In this document: in pieces, positions 1,347 through 30,856 of the stretch
Position numbering within the stretch: position 1 is the first letter of the stretch
Layout of the letters: each line of letters starts with the position of its first letter
NCBI GenBank assembly: GCA_013289165.1
Contig: JABDAL010000009.1
Span: 1 to 53,390, forward strand
Direction: 5' to 3'
Length of the DNA: 53,390 nucleotides
Source: Bacteroidota bacterium
Lineage (GTDB): Bacteria; Bacteroidota; Bacteroidia; JABEUT01
Notes under the pieces: generated by a model
What the model was told of the DNA's origin: nothing
Databases searched by the model: none
The model's input: the letters and a program-made list of their open reading frames with translations, nothing else
Made by a program: the position numbers and the translations under genes

Positions 1347-2669
1347 TTATTTATTGATTTTAAATACTCCCCTATTCAACGCCAATAGTGCTTCCTTCTT
1401 ATACTCGGCAGCTATTAATACGGAGATATTGTTTTTGCTTCCTCCATATGAAATCATCCGGATGGGGACATCTTTCAACGAATCAAAAATACGGACGGCA
1501 TAACCATGTTTATCGGCGAGAAAATCGCCCACTATACAAATTATCACCTGGTTCATCTCTACATCCACGGTGCCATACATTTCTAATTCGGTAATTATTT
1601 CTTTCAGGTTAGTTACATCATCAATGGTGAGCGAAACAGCAACCTCTGAAGTCGTAATCATATCAATAGGCGCCTTATACCTCTCAAACACCTCAAAAAT
1701 ACTTCGCAAAAAACCGTAGGCCATCAGCATACGAGTAGACTTTATTTTGATAACCGTAATGCTGTCTTTGGCAGCAACCGCCTTTATTTCGTCTCCTGAA
1801 GCAGCCTTGCTGATAAGTGTGCCTTTCGCTTCAGGCTGCATGGTGTTGAGAAGCCGTACGGGTACATTCTTCTTTTTTGCCGGAAGAATACAATAAGGAT
1901 GCAAAATCTTTGCCCCGAAATAAGCCAATTCCGCAGCTTCATCAAATGAAAGCTCTGCTATAGGATAGGTATCGGGAACGTAACGGGGGTCATTATTATG
2001 CATGCCATCAATATCCGTCCATATTTGAACTTCTTCCGCATTTATAGCAGCCCCTATAAGCGACGCCGAATAATCACTTCCCCCCCTTTTAAGATTATCT
2101 ACCTGCCCGAAAGCATTACGGCATATATAGCCTTGTGTAATAAATAATTCAGCATGCGGATATTTTGCCAATTCCTTTGCCAAATGCTCTTGCATATATT
2201 CCAAATCGGGTTCTCCATTCTCATCAATCCGCATAAAATTAAGAGCAGGTAAAAGAACCGATGGAATTTTCTGTTCCTCTAAATAATAATGAAACAAAGC
2301 GGTTGAAAGCAGTTCACCTTCCGCAAGAATGCTTTTTTCTTCGTTATGGGTGAACATATCCTGTGTAAAAGACGCGAGGAAATTAAAATGCTCAGTAACT
2401 ATTTCATTCCCTTTTTTCTTGTATTCATTCGTCGTAAAAAGCGTTTCAATCGTATCCCTATAAAGGGGTTCCAGTTCCTTTACTATGCGGGAAGCCTCAC
2501 TGGGTAATTGTTCGAAAAGGGCTTTTGTTATTCTCACTAGTTGGTCAGTAGTACCCGACATAGCAGATAATACAACTATTTTTCGGCCGGGATAATTTAC
2601 CAGCTTAGCAACCGCCTTCATACGCTCTGCCGAACCTACCGATGTTCCTCCAAATTTTAATACCTGCAT
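1347..2669 (-). CDS. lysC: Aspartate kinase, monofunctional
   Basis: The enzyme phosphorylates aspartate, the committed step to lysine, methionine, threonine and diaminopimelate. I place the start at ATG 2669, giving 440 residues beginning MQVLKFGGTSVG. The open frame extends 35 codons further upstream, but that part crosses the promoter box at 2689-2696 and is not family sequence. The kinase domain shows KFGGTSVG at the N-terminus, LKRGGSDYSASL and WTDIDGMHNNDPR. The C-terminal 130 or so residues form two ACT-type regulatory repeats, so feedback control by an end product such as lysine is expected. There is no fused homoserine dehydrogenase domain. It is the first gene of the lysC-lysA operon and diverges from the acyl-CoA reductase at 2742. 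Confidence 0.95.
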   Translation of the reverse strand: MQVLKFGGTSVGSAERMKAVAKLVNYPGRKIVVLSAMSGTTDQLVRITKALFEQLPSEASRIVKELEPLYRDTIETLFTTNEYKKKGNEIVTEHFNFLASFTQDMFTHNEEKSILAEGELLSTALFHYYLEEQKIPSVLLPALNFMRIDENGEPDLEYMQEHLAKELAKYPHAELFITQGYICRNAFGQVDNLKRGGSDYSASLIGAAINAEEVQIWTDIDGMHNNDPRYVPDTYPIAELSFDEAAELAYFGAKILHPYCILPAKKKNVPVRLLNTMQPEAKGTLISKAASGDEIKAVAAKDSITVIKIKSTRMLMAYGFLRSIFEVFERYKAPIDMITTSEVAVSLTIDDVTNLKEIITELEMYGTVDVEMNQVIICIVGDFLADKHGYAVRIFDSLKDVPIRMISYGGSKNNISVLIAAEYKKEALLALNRGVFKINK

Positions 2670-24279: not shown

Positions 24280-25473
24280 CTAGTGATATGCCACTGCAAT
24301 GGTAGCCGTACCATTTGCCGGAACAGGTGCCCCCGTTACTGTATTATAAAGTACACAATTAAATTGCACCTGCAACATTTTGGTAGGCTGGTTCTTCTCA
24401 TTATTCTGGTAGTTGGAAACAGATGTAACCTGGAATGTGCTGATATTGGGCTGGCTTAAACTATTCGAAGTATATTGAACTCCATTTGCATCTACATAGG
24501 TTATCAACACATTAGAAATTCTTTTAGTGTTTGGAACCGGTTGCGGAGTAGATAGAAAATAATCTAATCGGCAATGGGAAGAGACAGAATCTGTAAAATT
24601 ATAAACATACCCTACTGAATCTCCACCTGAAACATATCTTACACCTACAATAACATTGTGTGATTTGGCAGGTGCACGATACGCATGGGTTATCGTATCA
24701 TAAGATGTTCTTATTGAATCTCCATCACCAAACCACCACCAATAAACACAAGGAGTTTGACCGGCGTTGGTATATGCTTTTAGCTTAACTATATGATAAC
24801 TGGTTGAAGAATCTTTTGTAACAGCATTGTTTACTATAGAAGTAACCGAATCAATGGCAAGTTGAGAAGTACCCTGGTTAGTAATCAGGAGAGGATTAGC
24901 TGCTACTACAGTACCACATGCGTTAAATTGAACAGCAAGAGCGGTGGTATAGGTTTGTTTACTTTGCGGAATGTTGTATATATGAGAAGGAGGCGTGGCA
25001 GAGTTGGTAGTATATGTAGAACCATCCCCAAAATAGTATGTATATAAAGTAGGAATTCCGGAATATATCTTAGGGGTAAAGGTTACAGTTTCTTGCAAAG
25101 GTCCTCCGGTTCCCGGTGTGTTGTATGCGTAGTATACCGAAGGAGAAACCGATTTATTTATGTCTGATGATTGACCAGGGAGCCTTGCAGTATCATCATT
25201 AATGGTAATTTGAATGCTGGTTTTATTAGTACCGGTATTTTGAAGGTTGCCTGTAAAACTATATAGTTGCAGAGAGTCTGTATAATTGTAAGATGAGTAC
25301 ATGTAATAATTATTGATGCCTGCCTGAAGGTTCAAACTAGTAGCCCCAATGATTCCATTGAATGAAAAAACAGGTTGTTGTTGCACCGTGCCGGGGGTTA
25401 GCTCTTTTTTTATACACGCAGTATAGAGTGCACAAATACAAACAATCCAAACTATATTCTTAAAAAACTTCAT
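24280..25473 (-). CDS. PKD-containing lipoprotein, paralogue B
   Basis: The 397-residue product has a lipoprotein signal (MKFFKNIVWIVCICALYTAC, lipobox LYTAC). After an N-terminal beta domain come two PKD-like units, seen as YYFGDGSTYTTNS ... HIYN and WWWFGDGDSIRTSYD ... HAYRAP. The C-terminal 80 residues (for example VSNYQNNEKNQPTKMLQV) are nearly identical to those of the paralogue encoded just upstream at 25519-26688, whereas the middle regions differ. PKD domains are Ig-like adhesive modules found on surface proteins. It is the last gene of the sigma / anti-sigma unit, 45 bases after its paralogue, so surface display under this regulator is likely. The function is unknown. Confidence 0.75.
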   Translation of the reverse strand: MKFFKNIVWIVCICALYTACIKKELTPGTVQQQPVFSFNGIIGATSLNLQAGINNYYMYSSYNYTDSLQLYSFTGNLQNTGTNKTSIQITINDDTARLPGQSSDINKSVSPSVYYAYNTPGTGGPLQETVTFTPKIYSGIPTLYTYYFGDGSTYTTNSATPPSHIYNIPQSKQTYTTALAVQFNACGTVVAANPLLITNQGTSQLAIDSVTSIVNNAVTKDSSTSYHIVKLKAYTNAGQTPCVYWWWFGDGDSIRTSYDTITHAYRAPAKSHNVIVGVRYVSGGDSVGYVYNFTDSVSSHCRLDYFLSTPQPVPNTKRISNVLITYVDANGVQYTSNSLSQPNISTFQVTSVSNYQNNEKNQPTKMLQVQFNCVLYNTVTGAPVPANGTATIAVAYH

Positions 25474-25518
25474 GGTCCTATTTCTTAAAAGCCACTCTTT
25501 TATATATTGTTGTCAATT

Positions 25519-26688
25519 TTAGTGATATGCCACCGCAATTACAGCAGTACCATTTGCAGGCAAAGCTACACCATTCACTAGGTTATAAAGCATGCAATTA
25601 AATTGTACTTGCAGCATTTTAGTAGGTTGGTTTTTCTCATTATTCTGGTAATTTGAAACCGAAGTAATTTGAAAGGTACTGCTGCTTGGCTGGTTCGGAT
25701 TATTCGATGAATATAAAGCCCCATTTGCATCCGTGTAGGTCATGGTAACACTGGAAAGCTTTTTAGGATTTGGAACCGGTTGAGGGGTCGATACAAAATA
25801 ATCATCTATACGACAGGATGCAGCATTTGCATCTGTAAAGTTATAGTTATAATATATTACCTCATTTTTATGAGAATCCATAACTCCAAATACAAGGGTA
25901 TACGTTTGGTTAGGCACCGGATAAGTATAGTTAACTGTATCGGCAGTTCCGGATTTCGTAACAGTGGTATCAAGATGATAGGGATTGCCTTTATAACTCC
26001 ACCCGTACAAATAAGGAGGCTGGCCATTTTCTATATAGGCCCTAAATGAAACCTGATAATTCTGTGATACAGTAGCAACAACAGAATCAATTTTAAGTTC
26101 ATTCAATTGTTTACCAATATCAACAGAATTACTAAGATTTTTAGTGCCGCATGGAAATTCAACTGCCAGGGTAGTGGTATAGGTTTGAACAGTTGTATTA
26201 AGCTTGTAATAATGTGTTGGAGAGCTACGATTTGAGCCCGTACTGTCTCCAAAATCATATATAAATTGAGAGGGGGTTCCGGAATAAATCCTGGGAGTAA
26301 AATGTACAGAATCGAACACCGGTATACCTCCCGGAACATTATAAGGATAATACCCCGTCGCAGTGATTGATTTATTTATATCTGATAATTGGCTGGAAGA
26401 TTTAACAGTATCATCATTTATGGTAATTTGAATGCTATTTGCATTAGTGCCTGTATTCCGGAGGTTAGCTGTAAAATTGTATATGTTATTTGTATCGTGG
26501 GTATAGGACGAATACATATAGTAATTATTTACACCCGCTTGCATACTCAAACTATTCCCCCCAATTGTTCCACTGAATGAAAAGGCAGGCCCTCCCTGTA
26601 CACTGCTGGGGCTTATCTCTTCCTTTTTACAAGTTACAAACACCATGCCTGTCGAAACAATAAGAATTGTATTTTTCAAAAACTTCAT
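25519..26688 (-). CDS. PKD-containing lipoprotein, paralogue A
   Basis: The 389-residue product starts MKFLKNTILIVSTGMVFVTC, a lipoprotein signal with lipobox VFVTC. It shares with the downstream paralogue the N-terminal pattern FSFSGTIGGNSLSMQAGVNN, a run of threonine- and asparagine-rich strands, a PKD-like unit with YDFGDSTGSNRSSP, a less clear second unit (YGWSYKGNPYHL), and the conserved C-terminal domain. The second unit lacks the FGDG motif kept in paralogue B, so the two copies have diverged mainly there. The start codon lies two bases after the stop of the anti-sigma-like gene, so cotranscription and probably coupled translation are expected. The function is unknown; a surface or periplasmic partner of the barrel domain is a possibility. 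Confidence 0.75.
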   Translation of the reverse strand: MKFLKNTILIVSTGMVFVTCKKEEISPSSVQGGPAFSFSGTIGGNSLSMQAGVNNYYMYSSYTHDTNNIYNFTANLRNTGTNANSIQITINDDTVKSSSQLSDINKSITATGYYPYNVPGGIPVFDSVHFTPRIYSGTPSQFIYDFGDSTGSNRSSPTHYYKLNTTVQTYTTTLAVEFPCGTKNLSNSVDIGKQLNELKIDSVVATVSQNYQVSFRAYIENGQPPYLYGWSYKGNPYHLDTTVTKSGTADTVNYTYPVPNQTYTLVFGVMDSHKNEVIYYNYNFTDANAASCRIDDYFVSTPQPVPNPKKLSSVTMTYTDANGALYSSNNPNQPSSSTFQITSVSNYQNNEKNQPTKMLQVQFNCMLYNLVNGVALPANGTAVIAVAYH

Positions 26689-26690
26689 AC

Positions 26691-28181
26691 CTATTTCACT
26701 AATTGATAAGAAATGGCAACCCTTACGCCATTATTTTGTTCTAACTGATTAGTGCCGGGGAAGGTACTATTACGTATATATTCAAATCCGTGATATAATT
26801 CCAGGCGCACGCCAAGCCTGAAGGTGAGCATTCTTGTATATGAAATCGTGCCCTGGATATCATAATTAGAAAATCCCTGGGTGTAACCATTTTCTTTAAC
26901 ACTGCTGAGTAATGTTTGCTCAAAATAGGTTTGATGGTAGGAATTTACCAGGCTTTGTGTCGTTAGCATCACTAAATACTCTCCACCCACACTCAGCATA
27001 TTTTTATCGTCAAAGCTGTATTGTACTTTCACAGGAACGGTAATATAGTAAATAGTTTGGGGGGTTACTTTCACCACATTTTCATTCAGTCCAAAATCAT
27101 ACTGGATAACACTGCTTGTATACCCCGTTTCAAGACTATTAAGTTCAGCATACCCGGCACCGGCCGATGCAGATATCTTAGAGCCAAAGTAATGGGTATA
27201 ATCTATTCCACCCAAAAAAGTAATTCCATTTGCTTCCTTTATCCCATTATTATTCCATCCGAAGGAATAAGCTCCGCCAATATATGCCGACAATATGTTT
27301 GCAAAATAAACCGGTTTATCAACGGGTTCTGTACCCCGAATCATTGGATACTCAGCTGCATGAGAAACATTGCTGTCCTTTTTAGGCTTCGCCGGGATAT
27401 TATTTTTATTAGGCTCACCATTATTGGCTGCCGGAAGGGCAGAGTTTTTAGGAGGTGCAATGTTGTTGAGTGCAATTACATCTGGAGCTATAGGTGCGCT
27501 TGTTTGTGCCGCCGGGGTTATTGCATTTCCCTGGGGTATGCTGTTTCCGGCAGGCTTCATACTTCCTGTTTGCGAAGGAGTATTGGAAGAAGCAGGAGCG
27601 TTTGCATTCGCCGGACTTGCAGATGAAGGTGCACCCTCTTGGGAAGCCATCGTTTGCTGTGGCAAGTTTTCTTCACGTGCTATCATCTTACTGGTATCCT
27701 TTGTCCCTGAAGTAACGAAATCGGACGGACGTTTGTTAGCTGCGTTTGTAATAAAGGACCTGTTATGGGAAGAAATTCTTCCAGCACCCGTGCCGGTTTC
27801 CTTGTTGACAAAAGCAGGTTGCACGGGTGAGGAAGTTTTTTCTTCTATGGGAATATTTTTATTGGATAGGGGCATATTATTCTGCACCTGGCTTTCAGAA
27901 GACGATGCATTTTTGGGCACAGAAGCAGGCTTAGCAGTGTTAGAAACAGCAAAATTTGGAACAACTGGGTGAACATTTATCATAAAAGGCAGCATAACAA
28001 GTATACCTACGGCAAGGCCGGCCGAGAAAATCAGGAGAATACCTGCAAATTTCCTTCGTTTTTCCTCCTCAATTATCAAACGCTCTGCATCATCCCAACT
28101 TAATTCATCGAATGGGAAATCCCTTTCTGATAATTTGGAACTTAACAACTCGTTGAATCTATTTTCTTCGTCTTCAGCCAT
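26691..28181 (-). CDS. Anti-sigma-like protein with outer-membrane barrel domain
   Basis: The 496-residue product has an architecture that would cross both membranes. Residues 1-44 are charged and cytoplasmic (FPFDELSWDDAERLI is the type of short motif found in Bacteroidota anti-sigma N-termini). Residues 45-69 form one transmembrane helix. Residues 71-290 are a Pro/Ala/Ser/Asn-rich unstructured linker, long enough to cross the periplasm. Residues 291-496 alternate polar and aromatic/hydrophobic residues as in an eight-stranded outer-membrane barrel (AYIGGAYSFGWNN, SASAGAGYAELNSL) and end in VAISYQLVK. It follows the ECF sigma gene by three bases. It fits the dual membrane-spanning anti-sigma (Dma) type described in Bacteroides thetaiotaomicron. 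Sigma binding is inferred from gene order and N-terminus only. Confidence 0.75.
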   Translation of the reverse strand: MAEDEENRFNELLSSKLSERDFPFDELSWDDAERLIIEEEKRRKFAGILLIFSAGLAVGILVMLPFMINVHPVVPNFAVSNTAKPASVPKNASSSESQVQNNMPLSNKNIPIEEKTSSPVQPAFVNKETGTGAGRISSHNRSFITNAANKRPSDFVTSGTKDTSKMIAREENLPQQTMASQEGAPSSASPANANAPASSNTPSQTGSMKPAGNSIPQGNAITPAAQTSAPIAPDVIALNNIAPPKNSALPAANNGEPNKNNIPAKPKKDSNVSHAAEYPMIRGTEPVDKPVYFANILSAYIGGAYSFGWNNNGIKEANGITFLGGIDYTHYFGSKISASAGAGYAELNSLETGYTSSVIQYDFGLNENVVKVTPQTIYYITVPVKVQYSFDDKNMLSVGGEYLVMLTTQSLVNSYHQTYFEQTLLSSVKENGYTQGFSNYDIQGTISYTRMLTFRLGVRLELYHGFEYIRNSTFPGTNQLEQNNGVRVAISYQLVK

Positions 28182-28184
28182 GAC

Positions 28185-28724
28185 TTACATCACTTTAGCT
28201 AATTTTTCTTTTAATTGTTCACGCGAATTATGCAGGTGCCATTTCGAGGTGCCTTCCGTAATTCCTAACATACTCGCAATCTCCTTATGTTCAAACCCAT
28301 CAATAACAAAAAGGTTAAATACCTTTTGGCTTATCGGCGGCAGTTCCATAATTAGCCTGTGTATCCTTTCTGCGTCCATTTTTGCAATTGCATTATTCAA
28401 TTCTACCAAGGGAGTACCTTCTGCATAATCATACGCCACTCTCATATTTTTATCGTCTTTTTTCTTTTTGCGGTATTCATCTATAAGCACATTTATCATT
28501 ATCTTCCTTATCCACGACTTAAAAGGCACATCGGTCCTGTATTTTTCAATGCTGTTTAATATTTTTAAAAAGCCCATATTTAAAGCAGCGTTTGCATCTT
28601 CGTAAGAATGTGTATATCGTATACAAATGCTCATCAAATAACGAAATACCTGCTTATAAAGCTCATATTGTGCCTTTCTCTCCTTTCTTACACAAGCAGT
28701 TATCAGGTCGATTTCAATATTCAT
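28185..28724 (-). CDS. ECF sigma-70 family factor
   Basis: The 179-residue protein has the two domains of an extracytoplasmic-function sigma factor. Region 2 covers about residues 20-90 (RYLMSICIRYTHSYEDANAA, then FKSWIRKIMINVLIDEYRKKK), and region 4 covers residues 120-175 (LPPISQKVFNLFVIDGFEHK, EIASMLGITEGTSKWHLHNS, a helix-turn-helix). Region 3 is absent, as in the class. It is the first gene of a four-gene unit with the anti-sigma-like barrel protein and two PKD lipoproteins. Two promoters are visible upstream: a housekeeping TAnnTTTG box at 28790-28797 and an ECF-type AACC-N16-CGTA site at 28759-28782, which suggests autoregulation. Confidence 0.93.
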   Translation of the reverse strand: MNIEIDLITACVRKERKAQYELYKQVFRYLMSICIRYTHSYEDANAALNMGFLKILNSIEKYRTDVPFKSWIRKIMINVLIDEYRKKKKDDKNMRVAYDYAEGTPLVELNNAIAKMDAERIHRLIMELPPISQKVFNLFVIDGFEHKEIASMLGITEGTSKWHLHNSREQLKEKLAKVM

Positions 28725-28758: not shown

Positions 28759-28782
28759 TACGGAGAGGATACAGTAAAGGTT
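28759..28782 (-). promoter_or_regulatory. ECF-type promoter of the sigma factor operon (AACC-N16-CGTA)
   Basis: On the minus strand AACC (28779-28782) is followed after exactly 16 bases by CGTA (28759-28762), matching the AAC / CGT pattern of ECF promoters. The surrounding 14-base block TTACCCAACCTTTA (28774-28787) recurs before the PKD protein gene at 28909-30624, again with CGTA 16 bases after AACC. The leader to the sigma ATG would be about 30 bases. Confidence 0.6.
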
Positions 28783-28789
28783 GGGTAAG

Positions 28790-28797
28790 CAAAAGTA
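28790..28797 (-). promoter_or_regulatory. Second, TAnnTTTG-type promoter of the sigma operon
   Basis: The minus strand reads TACTTTTG, an exact match to the housekeeping -7 element, just upstream of the ECF-type site. It could supply basal sigma expression. Confidence 0.5.
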
Positions 28798-28854
28798 AAA
28801 TTATAAAAAAACTTGTATCTACATACAAATCAACTATAAAAATACATTCCTTAC

Positions 28855-28884
28855 AAAAAACCTGTCCCGCAATTTTGCGGGACA
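28855..28884 (-). terminator. Rho-independent terminator of the T9SS PKD gene
   Basis: TGTCCCGCAA (28863-28872) pairs with TTGCGGGACA (28875-28884). On the minus strand the stem is followed by GG and six T residues (28855-28860), so it ends the transcript of the gene at 28909-30624 before the sigma operon promoter. Confidence 0.85.
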
Positions 28885-28908
28885 AGGCTTTTCGCTTAAC
28901 ACAAAAAA

Positions 28909-30624
28909 TTATCGTTGAATCGCTATCCGTGAAACGTAGGTGTTGCCCGAAGTAATAACCTGCAACATATAAATACCGTTTTGGGCATTTTGCAAGTTTA
29001 TATCGCTTAGGGTATTTCCCCCGTTAAGCTCCACATTAGCTTGATAAATTAATTGACCCATCATATTAGACACGCGGATTTGTGCACTTTTATCATTGGC
29101 CAGTCCATTTATGGCAATACGGAATAATCCATCATTGGGGTTAGGATAAATGGTATACATACCCTTGTCTGTAATGGAGGCAATTCCGGTAACCGTGCTG
29201 ACATTTACGATTCCCGTAAACGTTGACAAATTATACCTTGGGCTTACTCCTGAGGGAGCATGTGGCTGTATAGTGTACCATTCCGTAAGAGTAGCGCTAT
29301 AAGGCCCATTGTGCAAATAGGTATGATTGTATGTTGTCATTCCTAATCCGGAATCAGAGGGGTCGCCATCACCGGGGGTCCATTTATAATAGGTATACAT
29401 GTATGTTCCTTTGGAGCAAGCAGCACTAAAGTCATACTGTCCTGCATGCATGCTGTCAGCTATGTAAGTAAAACATGCCTCCAATGAATCCCTGTTATGA
29501 ATATTAATCCTTTCAGTATAGGAGGAAGTGCAACCCGAGGCATTGGAATCCAGCAGTGTTACGTAATACGACCCTAAAAATGGAAATACATGTGTTATCG
29601 TATCATGCGCGGTTACCTTAGGTATGCCGTCTCCAAATGTCCATTTATAGAAGGTACCTCCATTAACTCCAAGGGAGGTGCTGGTAAATTTCACCTGGCC
29701 ATTGCTATCGTACGCATAGGTAAATTTAGCCTCCAAATCGCATGCATTGGTAACGGTAACCGGTAAAGTAATTGAATCGGCACATCCCGAAGTATCGCTG
29801 TGAATCGTTAATGTTACAGAATAGGTTCCATTAAATGCATACGTATGAGAAAATGGCCCTTTACCGGGATAATTATTGGTTGTATCACCCAATATCCAAA
29901 GGTAGTATTCTATGGGTCCCAAACCAGTTGAAGTATTGGTAAATGTAATTTGTCCATTGGGTCCCGAGGTGTAAGTAAAATTAGCATGAACATGACAATG
30001 TGAACTATCAGCCGTATTTACAGTAACGTATTCCGATACCGAATCTATACAGTATGGATTGCTTGTATCTCGTATAGTGAGCCATACCAAATAGGTACCC
30101 TGGTACAAGTATTTATGTGTAAAGGTTGAACCTGCATGCCTGCGCTGGTTGCTGTCACCCGGCGACCAATAATAGTATGTATTTGCGTTGACTCCTGAAG
30201 AAGTACTGGTGAAGTTTACCACCCCATGCGCACCCACCGTGTAGGTGAAGCGTGCATGTAATATACAAGGATTGTTCACATTTGTAACAGTTATCGCATG
30301 TGCGATTGAATCAGTACATGTAGTATCTGTTACCAAAAATGAAGCATAGTACGTTGCATTTGCCGTGTAGGTATATGCAAATGTTAAACTTGCGTGGTGC
30401 CACCCGCTTCCATCCCCCGGGTTCCAGTAATACTGTGCTCCCGGACCAGCCCCCACAACGGTGCCCGTAAAATTGTAATGTCCGTTAGCAACCGCCGTGT
30501 AAGTATAACTTGCAGAACAGGCTGTACTGTTATAACTGCTAAAGGTTAGCAGCCCCATCAGGAAAAGTGCTCCCCCCAGCATTTTCCCGACTGATTTTGT
30601 TGTTTTGTTTTTGAACTTTTTCAT
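28909..30624 (-). CDS. Five-repeat PKD protein with T9SS sorting domain
   Basis: The 571-residue protein has a long N-terminal signal (about 35 residues, ending near SSYNSTAC). Five PKD-type repeats of about 85-90 residues follow, each with a Y-x-W-x-x-GDG-like turn (YYWNPGDGSGW, YYWSPGDSNQ, YLWILGDTTN, YKWTFGDG, YKWTPGDGDP) and a C-x-D-S pair. The C-terminal 80 residues form a type A sorting domain for the type IX secretion system, with YPNPNDGLFRI at the start and NGIYMLQV ... VSRIAIQR at the end. It should be exported across the outer membrane and attached to the cell surface. Its only clear promoter is the ECF-type site at 30699-30722, so it is a predicted member of the downstream sigma factor's regulon. 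Confidence 0.88.
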   Translation of the reverse strand: MKKFKNKTTKSVGKMLGGALFLMGLLTFSSYNSTACSASYTYTAVANGHYNFTGTVVGAGPGAQYYWNPGDGSGWHHASLTFAYTYTANATYYASFLVTDTTCTDSIAHAITVTNVNNPCILHARFTYTVGAHGVVNFTSTSSGVNANTYYYWSPGDSNQRRHAGSTFTHKYLYQGTYLVWLTIRDTSNPYCIDSVSEYVTVNTADSSHCHVHANFTYTSGPNGQITFTNTSTGLGPIEYYLWILGDTTNNYPGKGPFSHTYAFNGTYSVTLTIHSDTSGCADSITLPVTVTNACDLEAKFTYAYDSNGQVKFTSTSLGVNGGTFYKWTFGDGIPKVTAHDTITHVFPFLGSYYVTLLDSNASGCTSSYTERINIHNRDSLEACFTYIADSMHAGQYDFSAACSKGTYMYTYYKWTPGDGDPSDSGLGMTTYNHTYLHNGPYSATLTEWYTIQPHAPSGVSPRYNLSTFTGIVNVSTVTGIASITDKGMYTIYPNPNDGLFRIAINGLANDKSAQIRVSNMMGQLIYQANVELNGGNTLSDINLQNAQNGIYMLQVITSGNTYVSRIAIQR

Positions 30625-30698
30625 TGTTTTTTGATTTTGATTTTGGTTATTATTTTTTAATATACACTTAACGCTCTCATTCTCATTTAACTCACCAT

Positions 30699-30722
30699 TA
30701 CGTTAGCATTTATTTAAAGGTT
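30699..30722 (-). promoter_or_regulatory. ECF-type promoter of the T9SS PKD gene (AACC-N16-CGTA)
   Basis: On the minus strand AACC (30719-30722) and CGTA (30699-30702) are separated by exactly 16 bases, the same spacing as in the sigma operon promoter. The flanking block TTACCCAACCTTTA (30715-30728) is identical over 14 bases. No TAnnTTTG box is seen in this leader. The leader to ATG 30624 would be about 70 bases and includes a CAAAAT-rich stretch. Confidence 0.6.
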
Positions 30723-30856
30723 GGGTAAATTCGAAAATATTTTTTGCATCCCTTAAAAAAACGTAAGGGTAAGCCCCAGATTCACAGGCAACGAAATCTT
30801 TTGGAACACCCATAGCCTCGCTAAAAGGGGGCTTATTGCAGGTAGATTTTTTAGGA

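Follow-up and report, generated by a model that had tools for sequence, protein, structure and literature searches.

A conserved ECF-type promoter motif likely links a sigma/anti-sigma operon to type IX secretion cargo genes in a Bacteroidota genome

The window analyzed here, meaning the whole stretch of 53,390 nucleotides, corresponds to contig C9 in a draft assembly of a Bacteroidota genome; the assembly totals 2.2 Mb (2,215,062 bases in 116 contigs) and is about 70% complete. On its minus strand lies the gene for an ECF sigma factor (28185-28724, 179 aa) that carries Sigma70 regions 2 and 4 only, with PF04542 (42 bits), PF08281 (50.9 bits) and TIGR02937 (89.8 bits) all above their curated cut-offs; assignment to the TIGR02985 ECF family was rejected, as its 68.8 bits fall below the cut-off of 126.4. 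Three nucleotides separate this gene from that of a likely Dma-like anti-sigma factor (26691-28181, minus strand, 496 aa), which had no Pfam or NCBIfam family match, and relatives keep the same gene order. The operon continues on the same strand with a lipoprotein (25519-26688, 389 aa) that has PKD-like beta domains in an all-beta model and Cys20 at the lipobox. Homologues of it take up the corresponding place in the operon at 15 sigma loci, with the lipobox cysteine invariant in the 15 sequences, and a Foldseek search with the lipoprotein model gave no useful match. A second operon lipoprotein copy (24280-25473, minus strand, 397 aa; PF00801, 32.3 bits) is 50% identical to the first by BLAST, such that the lipoprotein is tandemly duplicated here (24280-26688) and present as a single copy in the relatives that we looked at.

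The same strand also encodes a surface protein (28909-30624, 571 aa) with five PKD stretches (PF18911) and a C-terminal type A sorting tail of the type IX secretion system (T9SS), for which PF18962 (48.8 bits, cut-off 27) and TIGR04183 (45.8 bits, cut-off 23) both exceed their curated cut-offs. The first-pass annotation, made from the sequence alone, had proposed five PKD repeats and a type IX display signal for this protein and the absence of a housekeeping TAnnTTTG box from its gene; all of these held, with no such box found within 250 nt 5' of the PKD gene. A match to the box that it did not mention, TACTTTTG at 28790-28797 (minus strand), sits directly upstream of the ECF motif of the sigma gene. 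This rests on a pattern match only and could conceivably mark a basal housekeeping promoter of the sigma gene.

Upstream of both the sigma and PKD genes we found the 14-base block TTACCCAACCTTTA, at 28775-28788 and 30715-30728 on the minus strand, and no third copy exists in the window even when two mismatches are allowed. At both sites exactly 16 bases separate AACC from a downstream CGTA, giving the ECF-type promoters ACCCAACCTTTA-N12-CGTA at 28759-28786 (sigma operon) and 30699-30726 (PKD/T9SS gene), both on the minus strand, with 34 and 74 nt respectively from the motif end to the ATG. The arrangement upstream of the sigma factor's own gene is that of an ECF promoter, with an AAC-containing -35 element and a CGT-containing -10 element at fixed spacing. 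This confirms, with exact positions, the shared block and AACC-N16-CGTA layout that had been described before, together with the earlier claim that the shared parts are not mere copies, since spacers and flanks differ between the two sites. Our analysis adds a feature on which that description was silent, a GT at a fixed position past CGTA (CGTA-N3-GT), which both window sites have in common with many sites in relatives.

Across the 2,215,062 bases of the genome, exact ACCCAACCTTTA-N12-CGTA occurs three times: 5' of the sigma gene, 5' of the PKD/T9SS gene and between genes at C27:13814. No clear gene follows this last, perfect copy (G000:C27:13814-13841, plus strand); all that lies there is a short frame of some 57 codons that encodes a hydrophobic stretch. 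Loose matching with up to three mismatches gave no excess genome-wide (25 matches versus 35 for the reversed control), indicating that the signal resides only in near-perfect copies, and genome counts were restricted to these. Lengthening the spacer by one base (N13 after TTTA) in a genome search, an unplanned spacing control, likewise gave no excess.

A contig search recovered 49 loci with relatives of the sigma factor. The 14 closer orthologues (L070-L082 and L088) carry the same layout 48-78 nt before the start codon while the spacer and surroundings have diverged, and two distant relatives (L083 and L085) lack the motif. Motifs of the AACC/ATT...CGTA type also precede a sigma homologue in the culturable relatives Terrimonas sp. 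NS-102 (L091) and Sphingobacterium bovistauri (L093), at distances of 196 and 97 nt respectively. Within the genus, the motif precedes every sigma gene that adjoins an anti-sigma homologue, in one of two flavours. The retention of the motif 5' of orthologous sigma genes supports the autoregulation proposed by the first-pass annotation, with the reservation that no transcription start has been mapped and that both the start site and the reading of the motif by this sigma factor are inferred. In the draft sequence of one orthologous locus (L088, JABDHI010000070.1, 6001-6538) a frameshift, possibly a sequencing error, interrupts the sigma gene, and the promoter and anti-sigma gene look intact.

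The annotation had also suggested a genome scan for enrichment of the motif near particular gene classes, which we ran on 53% of the assembled genome (1,175,421 bases, 1.18 Mb), in 20-kb stretches picked by contig order and not by motif. A 15-column matrix was built from the 14 sigma-orthologue promoters, a set that contains no promoter of this genome and no cargo-gene promoter. The matrix was given its column set and spacing after the window had been viewed, and its letters come solely from other genomes. Genes (1017) were called by a simple open-frame rule and are approximate, and 50 of them were labelled T9SS by family searches with TIGR04183 and TIGR04131. A match had to score 15.5, be intergenic and lie on the same strand within 300 nt upstream of a gene. 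Eight matches were obtained, one before the sigma gene and seven before other genes, and all seven of the latter are T9SS cargo, against a base rate of 50/1017 (Fisher 4.6e-10). By comparison, 200 column-permuted matrices averaged 0.17 upstream matches and 0.015 before T9SS genes (maximum 1), and shifting the spacing by 1-3 bases left zero matches before T9SS genes. Because two of the seven cargo promoters are near-identical copies, six are independent. Near-identical upstream motifs (GCCCAACACTTGGG...ATACGTT) precede two type B T9SS genes at G000:C28:5947 (plus strand) and C17:9345 (minus strand), and these promoters appear to have been copied. The association of the motif with cargo genes is shown by computation. 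The proposed regulon that includes the PKD protein is supported and is predicted to be much wider than that one protein.

A slightly degenerate form of the motif occurs 51 times in 11 genomes of the genus versus 11 times for the reversed control (the order-level sample consists of the same 11 genomes). Among 37 genes scanned downstream of exact matches in four genomes of the genus, most are cargo: 17 have a type A and 11 a type B T9SS tail, several of the remainder look secreted or lipid-anchored or are truncated at contig ends, and there was a single weak match to a PorU model (6.3e-5). Some exact matches have no T9SS gene, or no gene at all, downstream, as at C27:13814. Orthologues of the five-PKD gene in two related species, G009 (52% identical) and G010 (58%), retain ACCCAACCTTT...CGTA-N3-GT in upstream DNA that has otherwise diverged, and they do so without lying near the sigma gene. 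The operon of sigma factor, anti-sigma factor and lipoprotein is conserved outside the genus, and a cargo-type gene with its own motif copy follows it in eight loci (L074, L075, L077, L078, L079, L081, L082 and L086), making the sigma-plus-cargo arrangement a recurrent one. In a class-level search the strict motif itself showed only a modest excess there (14 versus 5 control matches in 384 genomes), which is partly explained by clades that carry AACCCTT or TGTA variants instead.

This genome also encodes a paralogous sigma/anti-sigma pair on contig C34. Genes of the paralogue clade are preceded by CCCAACATT...CGTT in 5/5 genomes examined (AACA/AACG…CGTT for this flavour overall), and those of the window sigma's clade by CCAACC...CGTA; sigma clade and promoter flavour co-segregate in every genome examined. 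Across 51 sites, the -35 letter (C/G) co-varies with the -10 letter (A/T), with counts of 29, 5, 4 and 13 (Fisher 2.5e-5), and mixed combinations are found at nine of them. Given that flavour tracks clade and that the letters co-vary, the PKD promoter is more plausibly assigned to the window sigma factor than to its paralogue.

A further element that goes beyond the earlier annotation is control by an anti-sigma factor that may span both membranes. Its N-terminal FPFDE and W motifs are conserved, and the structure model places two helices at the N terminus, the second (29-68) with a hydrophobic stretch and membrane span. Residues 63-290 have pLDDT below 50, and we read these roughly 220 residues of very low confidence as a predicted disordered tether. 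The C-terminal strands (295-495) form a predicted barrel, for which Foldseek ranked the OmpA transmembrane domain first (E 2.4e-7), in a model with an overall pTM of 0.39. The architecture, as predicted, follows from the sequence; membrane topology is inferred. By this architecture and its position beside an ECF sigma gene, the protein is likely Dma-like, although sequence homology to Dma1-3 and binding or inhibition of the sigma factor are inferences. The sigma factor may correspondingly be Das-like, by analogy with the ECF21 sigma factors beside which Dma proteins are encoded.

At some motif copies an intrinsic terminator comes a short way downstream, in most cases with no gene in between. 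Such loci comprise G000:C34:2075 with its counterpart in G010, two each in L076 and L077, G182/G153, G304/G363 and G117. A terminator follows 10 of 74 motif copies versus 14 of 600 random intergenic positions (Fisher 8e-5); the 74 include copies from related species and are not fully independent. We regard motif-driven small RNAs as a possible lead and not as a result. On C34 the motif copy (2049-2075, minus strand, L214) lies just past the gene of the paralogous anti-sigma factor, and a strong terminator comes about 110 nt after it; between this candidate and its counterpart (G010:C34:19834, minus strand, L193) a stretch of about 60 nt before the terminator is conserved and the promoter spacer is not. 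Putative short motif-driven transcripts at L076 (9344 and 9559), L077 (9372 and 9640), L294 and L283 have the terminator loop TTTGGGATGG or TTTGGGGATGG in common, and those of L076 and L077 sit after the sigma operon and are strongly conserved. In L279 (G304) and L281 (G363), from another family, about 60 nt separate the motif from a downstream hairpin terminator that is conserved (AATCCCTTCTGC...GAAGGGATTTTTT). An Rfam search of the candidates assigned none to a family, returning only the SRP RNA and a DUF805b element.

The reading we favour, at a probability of roughly 0.84, is that ACCCAACC[T/A]TT-N13-CGTA-N3-GT is the promoter read by the sigma factor at 28185-28724 and that it governs the sigma factor's own operon together with a regulon made up mostly of T9SS cargo. 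The motif itself, its conservation and its spacing are shown by the sequence. The assessment is computational, without expression data, and the other ECF sigma factors of the genome were not surveyed. Under this model, the anti-sigma factor would sit in the outer membrane through its barrel, cross the periplasm by way of the disordered tether and keep the sigma factor bound at the inner membrane. Some change in the outer membrane or on the cell surface, perhaps involving a lipoprotein partner, would free the sigma factor, which would then raise expression of its own operon (sigma factor, Dma-like anti-sigma factor and two lipoproteins) and of dispersed surface-protein genes, mostly type IX cargo and including the five-PKD protein. 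The signal, the release mechanism and the role of the lipoproteins are all inferred.

The most serious alternative, which we consider unlikely, is that these are ECF promoters read mainly by another ECF sigma factor, such as the C34 paralogue, or by several with overlapping specificity, the window sigma gene being merely another target. In its favour, the paralogue promoter is very similar (CCCAACATT..CGTT), letters are mixed at 9/51 sites, and overlapping ECF regulons have been suggested in F. psychrophilum (PMC9723704). Against it, promoter flavour tracks sigma clade, the letters co-vary, and both window sites are of the AACC..CGTA type.

Two further readings were considered and rejected. 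That the ACCCAACCTTT block is an ordinary transcription-factor site, with CGTA incidental, draws some support from the upstream block, whose length and conservation exceed those of a typical ECF -35 element. We nevertheless hold it very unlikely, as the distance to CGTA is fixed, spacing shifts lose all T9SS matches, the block precedes orthologues of the sigma gene itself, and an ECF promoter is expected to combine AAC with CGT. A chance repeat or recent local duplication might be suspected from two copies 1.9 kb apart on the same strand; this is all but excluded, given that spacers and flanks differ and that the motif recurs at orthologous genes in other species and at unlinked cargo genes here.

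A bolder and more speculative extension is possible, whereby the outer-membrane barrel tied to the anti-sigma factor would sense outer-membrane state or type IX export status and reset the surface-protein repertoire through two arms, T9SS cargo and small RNAs from the same promoters, with flavour-diverged paralogues running separate cargo sets. This would loosely parallel the enterobacterial sigma-E response with its small RNAs. The system joins two known facets of Bacteroidota biology, anti-sigma factors that apparently span both membranes and type IX cargo. Its motif is a concrete signature by which promoters of a Das-like sigma factor can be recognized, allowing regulons to be predicted in uncultured Bacteroidota; the system also makes testable the idea of an outer-membrane sensor switching on surface adhesins and enzymes, and its two paralogous sigma factors have promoter letters that can be told apart.

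In the literature searched, mostly without subscription papers, we found neither a Dma-type system linked to T9SS cargo nor the present motif. Related systems nonetheless exist. In Porphyromonas gingivalis, PorXY-SigP provides ECF control of type IX machinery genes via the PorX response regulator (PMC4800418). It resembles the present system in tying an ECF sigma factor to type IX secretion, but it targets machinery genes, and the motif suggested for SigP, C(T)AAA(G/C/T)A(T)A(C)T(A/G)A, bears no relation to the one described here (PMC4800418). The SM6 promoters of Flavobacterium psychrophilum form a CGT-box class linked to T9SS machinery, for which the responsible sigma factor was left open (PMC9723704); features in common are a CGT box in the -10 region, a connection to T9SS and the presence of one ECF/anti-sigma operon among the motif-bearing genes, but their listed targets are machinery (gldN, porU) and band-7 proteins rather than cargo. 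A likeness also exists to Das/Dma. The Dma ("dual membrane-spanning anti-sigma") family lies beside ECF21 sigma factors, with Dma2 in a three-gene operon (PMC13088901). As predicted here, the sigma gene adjoins that of an anti-sigma factor with an N-terminal segment, one membrane helix, a long disordered tether and a C-terminal barrel (PMC13088901), in a short operon that includes an extra protein of unknown function and is subject to its own activity. The two differ in that the regulons reported in Bacteroides comprise vesicle formation (nigD1) and polysaccharide-use genes, whereas the regulon predicted here is type IX cargo, and in that the window system has a defined promoter motif and candidate small RNAs that bear it.
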